The notes under the pieces were generated by a model, which worked only from the letters and a program-made list of their open reading frames with translations, had not been told where the DNA came from and made no database searches. A stretch of 21,207 nt of DNA. Source: a virus. Made by a program: the position numbers and the translations under genes. Shown here piece after piece: positions 10,951 to 20,206 of the stretch; position 1 is the first letter of the stretch, and each line of letters opens with the position of its first letter. The stretch spans positions 1-21,207 of IMG/VR virus record IMGVR_UViG_3300045993_000206; one strand, given 5' to 3'.

Positions 10951-11547
10951 ATGGAACCAATCACCCAAGCACAATCAAATCAAATAAAAGCATGGGCTGA
11001 AGAAAGAGATTCCATTCTTAAAGAAATATCAGCAAAAAGAGAAGAATTAAACGCTCTAACTCTACACAACGCAGCACTCGCTGCATCAAGTTCTGAAATA
11101 TCTACTAGGATAGTGAAATCTGAAGGAAGACTTATCGAAGTTGAAAAGAAAGAGACAGAAATGTCTTCTAAAATATCATCTGAGATAGCAGAACTTACAG
11201 CACAAAAAACAGCACTTCAGTCAGAAGTGTCTGGTCTTGTTACGTCTATTCCATTACTAATTGCTCAAAAGGACTTACTTGTAGAGACTATTGAAAACTA
11301 TAAGGATGTAAGTGTAAAGATTTTCAAAAAGACAACTTCATTGGATAAAGTGGTAGACCACGTTACATCTGTGAATAAGGAAAATATTCATCAGGTAGAT
11401 GAACTTGTAAAGAGTCTCGAGAAGAGTGTGAAGAAGGTAATTGAAACGAATGAAGCGAATGTTAAAAAAGCTAATCAGTATATTGATGAATTACCTAAAA
11501 TATTCTTCGCTATACAGAAAGCAGCTCCTATCAAAAAAACAATGTAA
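10951..11547 (+). CDS. coiled-coil protein A of duplicated fibre module (198 aa)
   Basis: I place the start at the ATG at 10951, 1 nt after the preceding stop, because the longer upstream frame overlaps the 108-aa gene. The product is a long Glu/Lys/Ser/Leu-rich coiled coil over most of its length (about 15-170), broken by a short hydrophobic stretch near 92-110 (VSGLVTSIPLLIAQKDLLVE). It is followed 3 nt later by an MTYLGN fibre protein. The same arrangement, a coiled-coil gene then an MTYLGN gene, occurs at 15092-15987. A structural stalk or a fibre-assembly chaperone is plausible, without a recognised family. Confidence 0.75.
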   Translation: MEPITQAQSNQIKAWAEERDSILKEISAKREELNALTLHNAALAASSSEISTRIVKSEGRLIEVEKKETEMSSKISSEIAELTAQKTALQSEVSGLVTSIPLLIAQKDLLVETIENYKDVSVKIFKKTTSLDKVVDHVTSVNKENIHQVDELVKSLEKSVKKVIETNEANVKKANQYIDELPKIFFAIQKAAPIKKTM

Positions 11548-11550
11548 TAT

Positions 11551-12042
11551 ATGACATATCTAGGAAACAAATTCGGAGACCCAAATAACTTAGGATACTA
11601 TGCCACATCAGCAGCTTTAATATCTGCTTATCCTGTAGGTATAGCCGGAGCTTTTGCTCTAGTTGGTGCAACCGATACTTTCTGGGTGTGGGATGCAGAT
11701 ACAACAGCGTGGGTTGATTCAGGAGGCACAGGAAGCTCAGGGACAGTTACAACAGTTTCGGTGGTTACGGCTAATGGACTATCTGGTTCTGTAGCAAATC
11801 CAACTACCACACCAGCTATAACTCTTACTCTTACATGTCGTTCAGAGACACCATCAGGGACAATAAACGGTTCTAATGCGACTTTTACAATAACTACATC
11901 AAAGACATTCGTTATTGGTATATGGATGAATGGACAATTTATACATCCAGCTGACTATTCTGTTACTGGAACAACTATAACATTCGGTACTGCCCCGGAT
12001 GTAAGTTACAGTGGTTTACCTTTTACTATCGTCTATTTTTAA
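11551..12042 (+). CDS. fibre-like virion protein, MTYLGN copy 1 (163 aa)
   Basis: Starts MTYLGN, identical to the protein at 15604. Residues about 12-55 contain a common phage fibre module (LISAYPVGIAGAFALVGATD, then FWVWDADTTAWVDSGG). A linker of the TVTTVSVVTANGLSGSVAN type follows, and the end (about 100-163) is a beta sandwich with INGSNATFTITTSK and VIGIWMNGQFIHPADYSV, typical of tail- or head-fibre tips. The likely role is a fibre or receptor-contacting appendage. It lacks a signal peptide, unlike the gene that follows it. The two MTYLGN proteins differ after the first six residues, as expected if that segment is a shared attachment or assembly peptide. Confidence 0.75.
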   Translation: MTYLGNKFGDPNNLGYYATSAALISAYPVGIAGAFALVGATDTFWVWDADTTAWVDSGGTGSSGTVTTVSVVTANGLSGSVANPTTTPAITLTLTCRSETPSGTINGSNATFTITTSKTFVIGIWMNGQFIHPADYSVTGTTITFGTAPDVSYSGLPFTIVYF

Positions 12043-12050
12043 GATATAAT
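12022..12050 (+). promoter_or_regulatory. leaderless promoter of secreted 808-aa protein
   Basis: TTTACT (12022-12027), a 17-bp spacer and a perfect TATAAT (12045-12050) end 6 nt before the ATG at 12057. The -35 lies inside the preceding gene. This gives the signal-peptide gene its own leaderless transcript, separate from the fibre gene upstream. Confidence 0.55.
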
Positions 12051-12056
12051 TTATAT

Positions 12057-14483
12057 ATGAAAAAAATTTTACTATCAGCACTTCTAGGATTATTAACCAC
12101 TACAGCATTTGCGGCTCCTTACACAACATTTCAGGGTGGGACAGGAACATCTACAGCATACGCAAACCGTGTGCTTATTGGTAATACTGCAGGGACAGCG
12201 TGGACATCACTAGCTACTTCTTCTCTTGGTTTCCCTACACTTGCAACCATTCTTTCATCATTATCTAACACTGTAACAGGTCTTACATACACACCTGGCA
12301 CAGGGGTTACATCACTTACAGCCGGATATGTAATACCACTATCAGCATCAACCACTGAATGGTCAGGTTTTTATAATACACCATCAACAAGAATTACAGC
12401 TGGTACAAATCTTTCATGGTCTGGTAACACACTAAATGCAACAGGCGTGGGGTCTGGTGATGTAGTAGGTCCGTCCGCAGCAACAAGTTCAGCCGTTGCT
12501 CTATTTAGTGGAACAACTGGAAAGTTGCTAGAAAATTCTGTAGTAACTATGGTGGACACGATGTCTAGTGGAGTTAAAGACTATCTTCAAATTACAGGAA
12601 AAGCAAACAGTACAGCAGCCGGAGGAATTAGATTAGTCAAGACTATCAGTGGAGACCAAAAGTCAATACTTCAGTTTTCTGATTCAGGTTCTGATACTTT
12701 AGCACAAGGAAGACTTCGTTTTTACGGTGGAGCTCCAGGCATTAGTACGACGTTAGTTGGACAAATACAACCTGATGGTGATAGTTTTCTTGATTCTTCT
12801 GTATTTGCCAGTGGAACACTTTCTCGTTTTGGAATTGGAGCACAACCTACAGAAGTTTTTGATGTTAATGGAAGTGCTAGATTTAGAAAAGGATTTAAAG
12901 ATAGCACAAACGCAACAGGGACATTAGGTCAAATTCTATGGTCAACAGGAACATCAACATTATGGGTTGCTACAAGTTCTCTTGGGATAAGTGGAGGAGG
13001 AATCACTTCATTAGCAGGTCAAACTGGAGCAACACAGTTATTTGCTTCATCTACAACAGGGACTGATTTCACTATTACTTCTTCAGGAAATACTCATACA
13101 TTTAATCTTCCTAGTGCTTCAGCTTCTGCAAGAGGGTTTGTAAATACAACAACACAAGCTTTCACTGGGAATAAATTTTTTAATGGTAACCTTGAGAACT
13201 CTACTGATTTAACTGTAGGTGGCTCTGCAGGTATTGATATGACCGGGTCAGAATTATATGTTTCTGGAACCGTGGCTATAAATAAAGGGAACTCACCAGA
13301 AAATTTTGCATTTCGTGGAGCACCTCAGTATAGTGGTGTTGCTTTTATAAATTTGGACAGTTCTGTAGCAACAGCTGGTATAGGAGATTCTTTCGCTAAC
13401 CTTACTGTGACAGCTGATGGTACAGTCGGAGAAGCATCTTCAGGGAATCATCCACTTATAACACAGGTGGGATTGAAACCAGTCAGAGTTACTGCGGCAG
13501 CAGCAACCGTCTCAGACACATCTACTCTGTATATCGAAGGTTCAGCAACATCTACAACAGTAACAGGAAATAATTACTCTCTATGGGTAGATAATGTTGG
13601 AGGAGGAGGTAAGTCAAGAATTGACGGTTCTCTGGCTTTAGGAAATGAATTACGAGATTCTACTAACGTTTCAGGTGCATCTGGTCAAATTCTACAATCA
13701 ACAGGTACATCAACGCTGTGGGTTACAAATGACCCTTCAATTATTCCAGTAAAAACAGTTACTGACTTTAATGCAACTTATTCAGATGATTTGTCTCGTA
13801 TATGGTTCCATAAGATAACAGGGGCATCTAATGCTAATAATGTTTTAACTAATAGCTATATTAACAATGGAGTAGGACAAGTATATAGCACTACTTCTGC
13901 TGCACAGCAAATATCAACGGCTTCAGTCGCTAAAGATAATAATGTCACAATTACTAAAGGAATGATTACATATGAAGGTTTTCATTATGCTTTTGTCGGC
14001 ACAACTACAAGTTGGTCAATTCAAAGAGCAACTTCATCAAGCGATACTAATGTTGTGACACAGGCAAACTGGGCAACATCAACACTTTCTGGAGGAGGAT
14101 TTGCAAGTACAAGTTATAGTCTTGTTGGAGTTGCTGCTAATAAACTATATTTTATAGCAACTTCAACAGCACTAGTAAGTTTTACAATAGCAACGACAAC
14201 AAACACTCTTACGTTTAGTGCTACAACATCAATACCAACAGCTTCTATGAATGTGTCAAATACTAGAGTTAATGAAAATGGTATATATACTTCTGACGGT
14301 GGAGCGACGGTAGCAAAATTTAATTTTTCTGGAACTAGAGTAGCTAATCATGGAGGAGCTGCAGCGTTGTCTACAACAGTAGGACCAGGAATATTTGCTA
14401 CAAAGTATTCAATTTATTTATTAACGACAAATACTCCATCAAATAATACAGATTACCAGTTGTTTAAAATTAACGGTTTTTAG
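12057..14483 (+). CDS. secreted fibre-like surface protein with signal peptide (808 aa)
   Basis: The N-terminus is a classical Sec signal: MKK, a hydrophobic core at 4-13, and a likely cleavage after A19 (AFA/AP). The mature part is Ser/Thr/Gly/Ala-rich, predicted beta, and resembles both tail-fibre shafts (FDVNGSARFRKGF, GGTGTSTAYANRVLIG) and secreted proteins of Patescibacteria (GTSTLWVATSSLGI). A unit starting DSTNxxG and running through GQIL-S-TGTSTLWV occurs twice, near residues 282-308 and 534-560. No C-terminal S74 chaperone, enzyme motif or membrane anchor is visible. A signal peptide is not expected on a cytoplasmically assembled virion protein, so it may be displayed on the infected cell or derive from a host adhesin. 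It has its own leaderless promoter, and the CAP-domain gene follows 2 nt after its stop. Confidence 0.85.
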   Translation: MKKILLSALLGLLTTTAFAAPYTTFQGGTGTSTAYANRVLIGNTAGTAWTSLATSSLGFPTLATILSSLSNTVTGLTYTPGTGVTSLTAGYVIPLSASTTEWSGFYNTPSTRITAGTNLSWSGNTLNATGVGSGDVVGPSAATSSAVALFSGTTGKLLENSVVTMVDTMSSGVKDYLQITGKANSTAAGGIRLVKTISGDQKSILQFSDSGSDTLAQGRLRFYGGAPGISTTLVGQIQPDGDSFLDSSVFASGTLSRFGIGAQPTEVFDVNGSARFRKGFKDSTNATGTLGQILWSTGTSTLWVATSSLGISGGGITSLAGQTGATQLFASSTTGTDFTITSSGNTHTFNLPSASASARGFVNTTTQAFTGNKFFNGNLENSTDLTVGGSAGIDMTGSELYVSGTVAINKGNSPENFAFRGAPQYSGVAFINLDSSVATAGIGDSFANLTVTADGTVGEASSGNHPLITQVGLKPVRVTAAAATVSDTSTLYIEGSATSTTVTGNNYSLWVDNVGGGGKSRIDGSLALGNELRDSTNVSGASGQILQSTGTSTLWVTNDPSIIPVKTVTDFNATYSDDLSRIWFHKITGASNANNVLTNSYINNGVGQVYSTTSAAQQISTASVAKDNNVTITKGMITYEGFHYAFVGTTTSWSIQRATSSSDTNVVTQANWATSTLSGGGFASTSYSLVGVAANKLYFIATSTALVSFTIATTTNTLTFSATTSIPTASMNVSNTRVNENGIYTSDGGATVAKFNFSGTRVANHGGAAALSTTVGPGIFATKYSIYLLTTNTPSNNTDYQLFKINGF

Positions 14484-14485
14484 AA

Positions 14486-14809
14486 ATGGTAGAACTTCTA
14501 ATCATGATTAATATGGTTAGAGTTTCTCCTCTAAAAATAAGTCATACCCTTTCATCTATAGCAGATAAAAGGGCTACTTATTTATGTGACCACGAGTTCT
14601 CTCACGCAGGTTGGAGGAGTTATCCATCTAAATTTTCTTACAGAGGTGAGAATCTTGCAAAAGATTATGGTACAATTAAAGAAGCACACGAAGCTTTAAT
14701 GCTTTCTGCTAGTCACAAGGCAAATATCTTAAACAAGAATTATAGATATGTAGGTCTCGCTTATAAATGTGGAATTTTAGTAGAAGAATTTGGAGGATAC
14801 TCTTATTAA
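14486..14809 (+). CDS. CAP/SCP-superfamily domain protein (107 aa)
   Basis: This is almost exactly one CAP (CAP/SCP/PR-1) domain. The family pattern is visible in order: an N-terminal helix INMVRVSPL, ADKRATYLC, F-S-H40 in EFSHAGW, E55 in GENLA, E69 region, then S-x-x-H77 in SASHKANIL, and a final strand GILVEEFGG. H40, E55 and H77 match the usual cavity residues. CAP proteins are mostly secreted, and bacterial ones have been linked to lipid binding or proteolysis. This one has no clear signal peptide but starts 2 nt after the stop of the secreted 808-aa protein, so co-expression is likely. Function in a phage is unclear: it could be a virion enzyme or a cell-envelope effector. Confidence 0.75.
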   Translation: MVELLIMINMVRVSPLKISHTLSSIADKRATYLCDHEFSHAGWRSYPSKFSYRGENLAKDYGTIKEAHEALMLSASHKANILNKNYRYVGLAYKCGILVEEFGGYSY

Positions 14810-14814
14810 TAATT

Positions 14815-15060
14815 ATGGATGTAAAGGACAACAACAGTATAGAAGAACTCTCTCATATTTTACATGAGCATATTAATAATGAAACCCATAATATGACAGA
14901 ACTATTAAATGAAGTCAAGGCTATGAGAGAAGAGGTAAAACCGTTAGTTGATATTTATAAAGACTCTCTAGGTACTTATAAAATACTCACAGGATTCTTC
15001 AAGTTAGCAGCCGTTGTTGCGGCTGGTATAGCAGCCTTACTTTTCATTAAGAAATTGTAA
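14815..15060 (+). CDS. small membrane protein with C-terminal TM, holin-like (81 aa)
   Basis: I start this at the ATG at 14815, 5 nt after the CAP-gene stop, instead of the longer frame that overlaps it. Residues 8-45 form a charged amphipathic, coiled-coil-like helix. Residues 57-77 are one hydrophobic segment (GFFKLAAVVAAGIAALLFI) ending KKL. This 'coiled coil + C-terminal TM + basic end' shape is seen in XhlA-type holin-associated proteins and other small phage membrane proteins. It is not next to the endolysin, which lies 4.4 kb downstream beside another holin candidate. A membrane anchor for the surface proteins upstream is an alternative. Confidence 0.65.
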   Translation: MDVKDNNSIEELSHILHEHINNETHNMTELLNEVKAMREEVKPLVDIYKDSLGTYKILTGFFKLAAVVAAGIAALLFIKKL

Positions 15061-15091: not shown

Positions 15092-15595
15092 ATGAGCAAA
15101 ATGTCTCCAGTAGAACTTCCAACAAACCTACCTGATAATATTGAAGAAGCTATCAGAGCAGCAAAGAGAACAATGACAGATGTAAATGCTGAGACTTTGC
15201 GTATTAAGGATGAGAATGAAAACCTTCTAAAAGGATACGAACAAGATATTGAAAAAGAAGCTTCCAATTTAGCGGCTTTACGAACAGTTTTAACCGGACT
15301 TGACTCAGCTGTACTTGTAAAAAAACAAGAGATGCTTTCTCTTGATGAAAAGATAGGTGAAAAGCAGAAGTATCTAGCATCTTTCCATAGTAGAATAGAA
15401 GCATCTGAAGATGAACTTTCTAAACTTGATGAAGAAATAAAAACAAAGAGTAAAGATATTGAAGCTAGATTTACTTCACTTAGTGATAAAGAATCAGCCC
15501 TTAATGTGTACGCTACAGCTCTCTCTGTTAAGGAGGACAAAATCAACAGATACCTAGCGATGATTGAAGGAATCAAAACATCAGTCGCTAGATAA
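15092..15595 (+). CDS. coiled-coil protein B of duplicated fibre module (167 aa)
   Basis: After a short N-terminal segment (MSKMSPVELPTNLPDN) almost the whole protein (about 16-150) is a charged coiled coil rich in Glu, Lys, Asp and Leu, as in DELSKLDEEIKTKSKDIEA. It has no membrane segment. It has the same size class, composition and neighbour as the 198-aa coiled-coil gene at 10951: each is followed within 10 nt by a gene starting MTYLGN. The two coiled coils are not obviously alignable by eye, so they may be old paralogues or analogous stalks. The role is unknown, with fibre stalk or assembly chaperone most likely. Confidence 0.75.
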   Translation: MSKMSPVELPTNLPDNIEEAIRAAKRTMTDVNAETLRIKDENENLLKGYEQDIEKEASNLAALRTVLTGLDSAVLVKKQEMLSLDEKIGEKQKYLASFHSRIEASEDELSKLDEEIKTKSKDIEARFTSLSDKESALNVYATALSVKEDKINRYLAMIEGIKTSVAR

Positions 15596-15603
15596 TACTA
15601 TCT

Positions 15604-15987
15604 ATGACATATCTAGGTAACTCGTCAATACCTCTTACACCGGATGAGGAACTCATATTAGCTGACTTAGTTGCTCTTGGAGCACCTGGTCAAGTACCAG
15701 CAGTAAATGCTAGTGGAACAGGACTTGAATATATTGATGTTTCAGGTTCTTCAAACACGTTCGAAACAGTATCAGCTAACCTATCAGCTTATGATTACAC
15801 TATCAATTATAACGTTTCAGGCGATGTATCGTCTATTGTCTATTCTAATGGAGTCACTAAGACACTTAACTATACCAGTGGTAATGTTACTAGTATTGTA
15901 CTTTCTGGCTCTACTCCTTCAGGTATATCACTCACAAAGACATTGACATACACATCAGGGAATGTAACAGGTATATCTTACTCATAA
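15604..15987 (+). CDS. fibre-like virion protein, MTYLGN copy 2 (127 aa)
   Basis: Starts MTYLGN. Its first 14 nt are identical to those of the gene at 11551. Residues about 28-52 (GAPGQVPAVNASGTGLEYID) are a common fibre linker. The C-terminal half is strand-turn repeats: KTLNYTSGNVTSI (about 90-102) and KTLTYTSGNVTGI (about 113-125), preceded by a looser copy with NVSGDVSSIVYS. This recalls the spirals of YD/RHS-like beta repeats, although only two to three units are present. It is probably a short fibre or appendage tip, partner of the coiled coil upstream, 8 nt away. No Shine-Dalgarno sequence. Confidence 0.7.
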   Translation: MTYLGNSSIPLTPDEELILADLVALGAPGQVPAVNASGTGLEYIDVSGSSNTFETVSANLSAYDYTINYNVSGDVSSIVYSNGVTKTLNYTSGNVTSIVLSGSTPSGISLTKTLTYTSGNVTGISYS

Positions 15988-19411: not shown

Positions 19412-19867
19412 ATGTCACGAGATACAAAAGATTTGCTACCATTAGTAGCACGTAAAGCAAAAGAATTTCAAAAGTTAGCACTAGCTAACGGAGTTGATTT
19501 TATTATTACCTGTACGTATCGTTCTATAGAGGAGCAAAACGCTCTTTACAATCAGCCTTTTGACAAAATAGACAATGATAAAGATGGTATGATTGATGAA
19601 TCAGATGAGAAAGTTACTCAAGCTAAAGGTGGACAATCGTTTCATAATCATCGTGTGGCGTTTGATATTGTCCCTATATTAAATGGTAAGGCTCAATGGA
19701 ATAACGATGCACTATGGTCAAAATTAGGAAAACTAGGACAGTCTATAGGTATTGAATGGGGAGGCTCGTGGACAAACTTTAAAGATAAACCTCATTTTCA
19801 AATTATTCAAGGATACTCATTCACCGACTTCACAAAAGGTAAAGTGGATTTGAAAAAGTTTGCTTAA
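19412..19867 (+). CDS. endolysin, M15 L-alanyl-D-glutamate-type peptidase with Ca-binding loop
   Basis: A 151-residue single-domain peptidase. The zinc motif SxHxxxxAxD is S76-F-H78-x4-A83-F-D85, and the third ligand is H128 in KPHFQ, with E115 in IEWGG as the likely catalytic base. This is the M15 (VanY-like) family used by phage endolysins to cut the peptide stem of peptidoglycan. Between the second helix and the zinc motif there is an EF-hand-like loop, D54-x-D56-x-D58-G59-x-I61-D62-x2-D65. It resembles the calcium-regulated loop of phage T5 endolysin, suggesting Ca-controlled activity. There is no signal peptide, so it needs the holin candidate just downstream. It follows the Gly/Met-rich gene by 2 nt. 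Confidence 0.88.
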   Translation: MSRDTKDLLPLVARKAKEFQKLALANGVDFIITCTYRSIEEQNALYNQPFDKIDNDKDGMIDESDEKVTQAKGGQSFHNHRVAFDIVPILNGKAQWNNDALWSKLGKLGQSIGIEWGGSWTNFKDKPHFQIIQGYSFTDFTKGKVDLKKFA

Positions 19868-19912: not shown

Positions 19913-20206
19913 ATGAATCCAATTATCGCTTCATCAGTTGACCCTACAAAGTTATCAAACACTATTAAGGGTATTATTATTTCTCTATCGAGTGTTATCA
20001 TTTTCGTTGCTTCTGTGTATTTTAATACATCAGTAAGTTCAGACCAGGTTATGTCTTTTGCAAACCAGACAGCCAATACAGTTGCTGCGGTAGGTATAGC
20101 TTTCGGAGCACTACACACAATGTACGGTCTTCTTGTAAAAGCACTGAACAAGGTTACTACTAAAAAAAATGAATCAGAAACTCTACAGTCGTCTGTTGAG
20201 AATTAG
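19913..20206 (+). CDS. holin candidate, two TM segments (97 aa)
   Basis: Residues 18-37 (TIKGIIISLSSVIIFVASVY) and 53-76 (TANTVAAVGIAFGALHTMYG onward) are hydrophobic, separated by a short polar loop, and the C-terminus is polar and charged (KKNESET). A small two-TM protein directly after the endolysin is the classical holin position, and the topology fits a class II holin. Sequence alone does not prove pore formation. The gene has a probable promoter of its own and no Shine-Dalgarno sequence. Confidence 0.75.
   Translation: MNPIIASSVDPTKLSNTIKGIIISLSSVIIFVASVYFNTSVSSDQVMSFANQTANTVAAVGIAFGALHTMYGLLVKALNKVTTKKNESETLQSSVEN

Follow-up and report, generated by a model that had tools for sequence, protein, structure and literature searches.

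A Sec signal peptide on a tail-fibre-like protein encoded behind a virion adapter stub in an uncultured phage: a candidate for fibre docking outside the cytoplasm

Results

A signal-bearing fibre gene in a tail-fibre module

The window, by which we mean the whole 21,207-nt stretch analysed (positions 1 to 21,207 of IMG/VR record IMGVR_UViG_3300045993_000206), carries on its plus strand an open reading frame at 12057-14483, whose 808-aa product had been singled out in a sequence-only reading. The N terminus of this product displays two lysines, a hydrophobic core some 14 residues long and then AFA/AP at residues 17-19 (the slash marks the predicted cut), which together form a classical Sec signal, MKKILLSALLGLLTTTAFA/AP, spanning residues 1-19 (12057-12113, plus strand) with cleavage predicted after A19. 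Signals were assigned by a rule of our own that asks for K or R in the n-region, a 9-residue hydrophobic core with a mean hydropathy of at least 1.9 and small residues at -3 and -1, and that returns about 7% background positives. Applied to all genes of the window, this rule finds a positive n-region, a hydrophobic core and an AxA site in the 808-aa fibre, which bears the only convincing Sec signal; the other match, at 19913, was rejected as a holin-like transmembrane (TM) segment. As no ATG, GTG or TTG lies between codons 1 and 39, a signal-less form cannot begin near the cleavage site, and the signal proposed earlier, with its cut at about A19, is borne out.

The predicted mature protein (12114-14483, plus strand) is tail-fibre-like, as judged by a shared motif and domain, rich in serine and threonine and free of cysteine, and a check for surface anchors found no LPXTG motif, lipobox or C-terminal TM segment. 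Its repeats comprise two copies of GTSTLW and two of ATSSLG, the latter at 12213-12230 (residue 53) and at 12969-12986 (residue 305, within GTSTLWVATSSLG), both on the plus strand. The repeats noted in the sequence-only reading are present, and none of 2000 composition shuffles of the fibre reached two ATSSLG units. A promoter-like site, TTTACT-17-TATAAT (12022-12050, plus strand), ends 6 nt upstream of the fibre ATG and makes a leaderless transcript plausible. The earlier claim of an own leaderless promoter thus holds for the presence and spacing of the site, but shuffled sequence has sites of this kind at least as often as the region. Across the window, TATAAT lies 7-32 nt upstream of four starts (9507, 12057, 15092 and 19412), which suggests leaderless transcripts.

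The fibre gene lies behind an adapter gene and ahead of lysis genes, which is a tail-fibre-module position and agrees with the virion-module placement given before. In the module, all on the plus strand, a coiled-coil protein (10951-11547) lies directly before the adapter and is kept in the phage family with homologues (39-46%) in 31 related loci; its start was set at the ATG at 10951, in agreement with the start of the relatives. The adapter follows at 11551-12042 as a stub of 163 aa that, by comparison with relatives, consists of an N-terminal virion adapter domain and a C-terminal docking-type domain. Beyond the CAP gene that follows the fibre come a small protein with a C-terminal hydrophobic segment (14767-15060), which from its sequence may be in a holin/XhlA-like position, a second coiled-coil gene (15092-15595) with homologues in 6 related loci, and a second adapter stub (15604-15987), whose homologues in relatives are the N termini of fibre genes. 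This second coiled-coil and stub pair (15092-15987) is an observation in its own right, the stub being merely 127 aa long and the homologous adapters in relatives beginning fibre genes. Further downstream, an M15/VanY endolysin (19412-19867) contains a stretch, DNDKDGMIDESDE, that resembles the calcium-binding loop of an EF-hand, although the match to the Pfam EF-hand (E 0.017) falls short of the cut-off.

The CAP-domain protein (14486-14809, plus strand; PF00188, E 1.5e-9; viral relatives L106-L114) stands alone and has no signal. Its gene starts 2 nt past the fibre stop, and it had been read as a partner of the fibre. The neighbourhood stands, but we rejected CAP as a component of a signal-fibre unit because none of the 17 related or fibre-bearing records searched has a CAP match. 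Viral CAP relatives are mostly proteins with a signal and LysM beside holin or endolysin genes in gut-type phages, and the nearest (L106, 45%) is likewise stand-alone. With no signal of its own and viral relatives mostly in lysis regions, the CAP gene is, judging by sequence, a separate matter from the fibre.

The phage family and the relatives of the fibre

The phage family of the window is represented in IMG/VR by at least 80 terminase relatives (68-88% identity), and in one member (L008) the major capsid protein is 98% identical to that of the window, whose flanking genes match the family. The family layout is a coiled-coil gene followed by fibre genes that open with one adapter domain. This domain corresponds to about 64 aa of the 11551-12042 product and is 61-69% identical to the starts of the relatives' long fibres; in the relatives it is joined in one protein to fibres that reach about 1000 aa, whereas in the window the adapter protein ends at 163 aa and the signal-bearing fibre gene begins 14 nt downstream. 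The family relatives examined lack the 808-aa fibre, the CAP protein and the M15 endolysin, and only 3 of 774 family ORFs of at least 150 aa pass the signal rule, none of them a fibre. The signal fibre therefore looks like a recent acquisition in the lineage of the window. In the fibre modules of several relatives (among L089-L100), glycosyltransferase-like genes, recognised by eye, are inserted among the fibre genes.

The 808-aa fibre shares a short motif with the phage fibre-like protein MW202545 and a domain of 140-240 aa with other viral, fibre-like proteins, which upholds the fibre character assigned to it earlier. Pfam and PHROG scans of the protein gave no match, and we therefore count its sequence relation to annotated fibres as present but weak. 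A PDB sequence search likewise returned no match, and its C-terminal 238 aa had no relative among the loci collected up to that search. Structure prediction, which had been proposed as a check, was of use for only one of the two proteins: the AlphaFold model of the fibre has a pLDDT of 40, unusable for judging a trimeric beta fold, while the C-terminal domain of the stub was modelled with confidence (see below). A homology search against other phages, also proposed, did find viral relatives, for the most part phage proteins encoded in virion modules. Among the bacterial genomes covered by the search, the sole match is from Flavisolibacter (Bacteroidota, L005), and that protein too seems to have a signal.

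The closest relative found is the fibre of a phage (L003, IMGVR_UViG_3300033067_000899) in which a 61-residue segment is 85% identical to the window fibre; blastn between the two fibres reported no nucleotide match. As in the window, the L003 fibre is signal-bearing and has a gene with the same adapter domain ending shortly (9 nt) before it, but the phage is otherwise different and has two further signal- or TM-bearing proteins behind its fibre. Behind the L003 signal fibre and the L002 relative, a TM-bearing protein is followed by a signal protein (L103 6862-8740, L104 2466-3858), an order that is alike in these otherwise different phages.

The stub ends in a domain that recurs in front of signal fibres

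The last 73 residues of the stub (residues 91-163; 11821-12039, plus strand), ETPSGTINGSNATFT...DYSVTGTTITF, form a beta domain predicted by AlphaFold with pLDDT 89-98. In structure comparison it matches CBA120 TSP4 with a VIA Z of 8.2 to residues 187-249 (XD2; rmsd 2.4, 63 aligned) and of 7.7 to residues 261-332 (XD3). Since the connector proteins of T5 and DT57C score as well (Z 9.0 and 8.6), the match speaks for the fold only.

A scan of viral contigs for WVATSSLGI yielded about 12 further signal-bearing fibre-like proteins, together with an adjoining family with WVATSTFGI and no signals. A second scan, for GYxLQ(T/S)(N/D)GxxxxW, separated two groups, signal-bearing proteins, most of which have the motif soon after the signal, and signal-less ones with the motif after a longer N-terminal region. 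Signal fibres have virion genes as neighbours: L224, for instance, shows a PHROG major head protein upstream, and L125 shows head-closure and amidase matches downstream. The L125 fibre itself matches PHROG tail fibres and contains the chaperone domain Peptidase_S74. In L186 the signal fibre shares 35-39% identity, over 400-500 aa, with the homologous tail fibres of the cultured phages Pelagibacter HTVC111P/112P, Roseobacter CRP-1 and Methylophilales Venkman, which, unlike it, have ordinary N termini without a signal; for the signal fibres of L321 and L302 the phage collection held no cultured relative. In these last two phages and in L335, uncultured and Bacteroidota-like judging by signals, the tail-fibre region has two to four consecutive signal-bearing genes (L302 335-5054, L335 2594-7599, L321 1-3395). 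Glycine-rich proteins resembling fibre tips also occur with a signal peptide (L126 1861-2790, L137 2742-3455), and tip-type domains of this kind occur without one in L127 (5784-6761) and in the window relatives L026 and L098.

An upstream gene could be read in 19 signal-fibre loci. In 16 of these its product ends in a stub-type domain of about 70 aa (ExPxGxINGxNxTFT...YTxSGxTITF), the exceptions being L122, L124 and L127. The distance from upstream gene to fibre is mostly -8 to +14 nt, and three more pairs overlap further owing to alternative starts. Started from the stub domain of the window alone, phmmer finds 6 of the 16 domain-bearing loci, and an HMM of the domain set also picks up L224, absent from its building set, where a signal fibre is again next. 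In a test blind to signals, viral contigs were scanned by DNA pattern for the core motif of the stub domain alone. Among the matches listed, 14 of 39 non-redundant genes next to a C-terminal copy of the domain are signal-bearing; for the rest of the ORFs in these loci the figure is 89 of 1337 (odds ratio 7.9, Fisher p=2.3e-7). The remaining next genes are mostly signal-less fibre-like proteins with starts such as MAETTIAGRQI and MAQTKLNNAQL.

Starts of this signal-less type also appear directly behind the cleavage site of signal fibres, as in FG/QATKIREG (L309), WG/QTQFKTNQI (L321), MA/AVTQVDLTTQ (L255) and AA/QTQVNLQTQ (L330). When 15 signal fibres were compared with a profile of signal-less fibre N termini, the best-matching position coincided with the predicted cleavage site in 8 of them, where 1.9 would be expected; the p value of 2e-4 is only indicative because some cleavage sites were set by eye. 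The mature N terminus of the window fibre, APYTTFQGGTG, is of a QGGTG type and is not a best match of this docking profile. Most signal fibres have a good AxA-type site, and the signals of L159, L120 and L310 look more like anchors than cleavable signals.

Signal-bearing fibres in virions of cultured phages and the likely hosts

Evidence from particles comes from cultured Cellulophaga phages. In phi19:1 (NC_021799), gp101, gp102 (pectate lyase), gp103 (tail fiber) and gp104 each start with a Sec signal and are annotated in the record as detected in virions by MS/MS, and the same holds for gp91, gp92, gp93 and gp94 of phi10:1 (NC_021802). Both records are silent on signal cleavage. By record annotation, then, eight signal-bearing fibre or tailspike proteins of these two phages are virion proteins, and by analogy the window fibre may be one too. 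Signals are present on nearly all fibre-module genes of phi19:3, phi46:3, phi13:2 and Ingeline_1, and several Cellulophaga signal-fibre genes have no internal start within the first 50 codons; the fibres of phi38:1 and phi46:1 have no signals. The regularity of fibre and tailspike signals goes unmentioned in the records NC_021799, NC_021802, NC_021789, NC_021792, NC_021803 and MT732435. A search of the open-access literature found no paper describing signal-bearing tail fibres as a class, which is weak evidence of absence.

Shine-Dalgarno use is at chance level in the window (9%; 2 of 22 ORFs, the shuffled level), in its family (11%), in the L003 phage (8%) and around the repeat-motif signal fibres (5%), shuffled sequence giving 5-14%; the Cellulophaga phages stand at 9% and signal-less comparison sets at 30-50%. 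Missing Shine-Dalgarno use fits Bacteroidota hosts, and other lineages without it are possible. The sequence of the window is thus compatible with a Bacteroidota host. Three signal fibres from the stub scan (L240, L246 and L307) do use Shine-Dalgarno sites, which indicates that signal fibres as a class are not confined to one host group.

Discussion

In standard teaching, tailed phages assemble in the cytoplasm, and the sequence-only reading had taken the signal to imply a separate role away from the virion. The presence of signal-bearing fibres in Cellulophaga virions removes the premise of that step, and with signal fibres frequent behind adapter stubs we find the proposed non-virion role unsupported. 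We consider it reasonably probable that the 808-aa product belongs to the virion as a tail fibre, leaving the cytoplasm by way of Sec and docking on the virion adapter outside it. In such a scheme a Sec signal peptide would stand in place of the usual virion-adapter N terminus of the fibre, and the adapter, made separately as the upstream 163-aa stub, would remain in the cytoplasm and join the particle. The fibre would be exported, cleaved after A19 and folded outside the cytoplasm, and its new N terminus may dock on the XD-like C-terminal module of the stub once fibre and particle come together, at lysis or later.

A protein with a classical signal, adhesin-like repeats and a promoter-like site of its own could instead be a surface or secreted effector that coats the infected cell and so hides receptors, keeps other phages out or alters the attachment of the host to partner cells. 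We regard this as unlikely, given that the window fibre has no surface anchor, that in many phages such fibres are tightly coupled to the gene for a virion adapter and that signal-bearing fibres occur in the virions of cultured ones; the fibre may have a second role at the infected cell. The signal might also, if its cleavage were slow or absent, tether fibre trimers to the membrane and so keep them apart from the particles until they are released by lysis and join the virion. The late position beside lysis genes and the anchor-like signals of L159, L120 and L310 fit such a tether, but most signal fibres have a good AxA-type site at which a fibre-like N terminus often starts, and we judge it distinctly improbable.

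That the gene is a captured host adhesin, lying by chance inside a virion module, was another suggestion of the sequence-only reading. Apart from the Flavisolibacter match with its apparent signal, all relatives found are viral and sit in virion modules with phage fibre motifs, and the adapter-plus-fibre unit is widespread, so that we hold such a capture to be very unlikely. Least probable is an artefact, whether a hydrophobic start that arose by chance or a contig that is chimaeric or stems from a host. It could draw on the lack of any other signal-bearing fibre in the family of the window, but it is contradicted by the recurrence of the signal-plus-stub layout in many independent contigs, by the signal fibres of cultured phages and by the family matches of the genes that flank the fibre.

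We more tentatively propose, at somewhat less than an even chance, that export of a tail fibre exemplifies a widespread and overlooked class in tailed phages, in which receptor-binding fibres are secreted by Sec, matured by signal peptidase and joined to virion adapters after export or lysis, at least in phages of Bacteroidota and also in those of other hosts. If fibres routinely passed through Sec, their attachment would occur in another compartment, fibres could be shared between particles from different cells and free fibres could coat the host. Annotation that drops signal-bearing ORFs as host genes would then overlook receptor-binding proteins. The idea can be tested now in the cultured Cellulophaga phages, and the adapter-stub domain offers a sequence handle for finding signal fibres in uncultured ones.

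Known systems allow further comparison. The Cellulophaga fibre clusters resemble the window in having fibre-module genes with strong Sec signals, which are consecutive in Cellulophaga, and their fibres are the same kind of protein as that of the window but not demonstrably the same sequence family. For the docking step, the comparison is with TSP4 of CBA120 and gp10 of T4, whose partners are not known to carry a signal. Because XD-like folds are common in phage tails, the partner of the stub domain is one that we infer. The sequence identity between the TSP4 and gp10 modules and the stub domain is only 15-21%, but the likeness extends to the fold of the C-terminal domain and to an arrangement of stub and then fibre gene. 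The XD2/XD3 modules of TSP4 and those of T4 gp10 are where partner tailspikes or fibres bind (PMC8825819), and by analogy it is reasonable to infer that the fibre docks on the stub.
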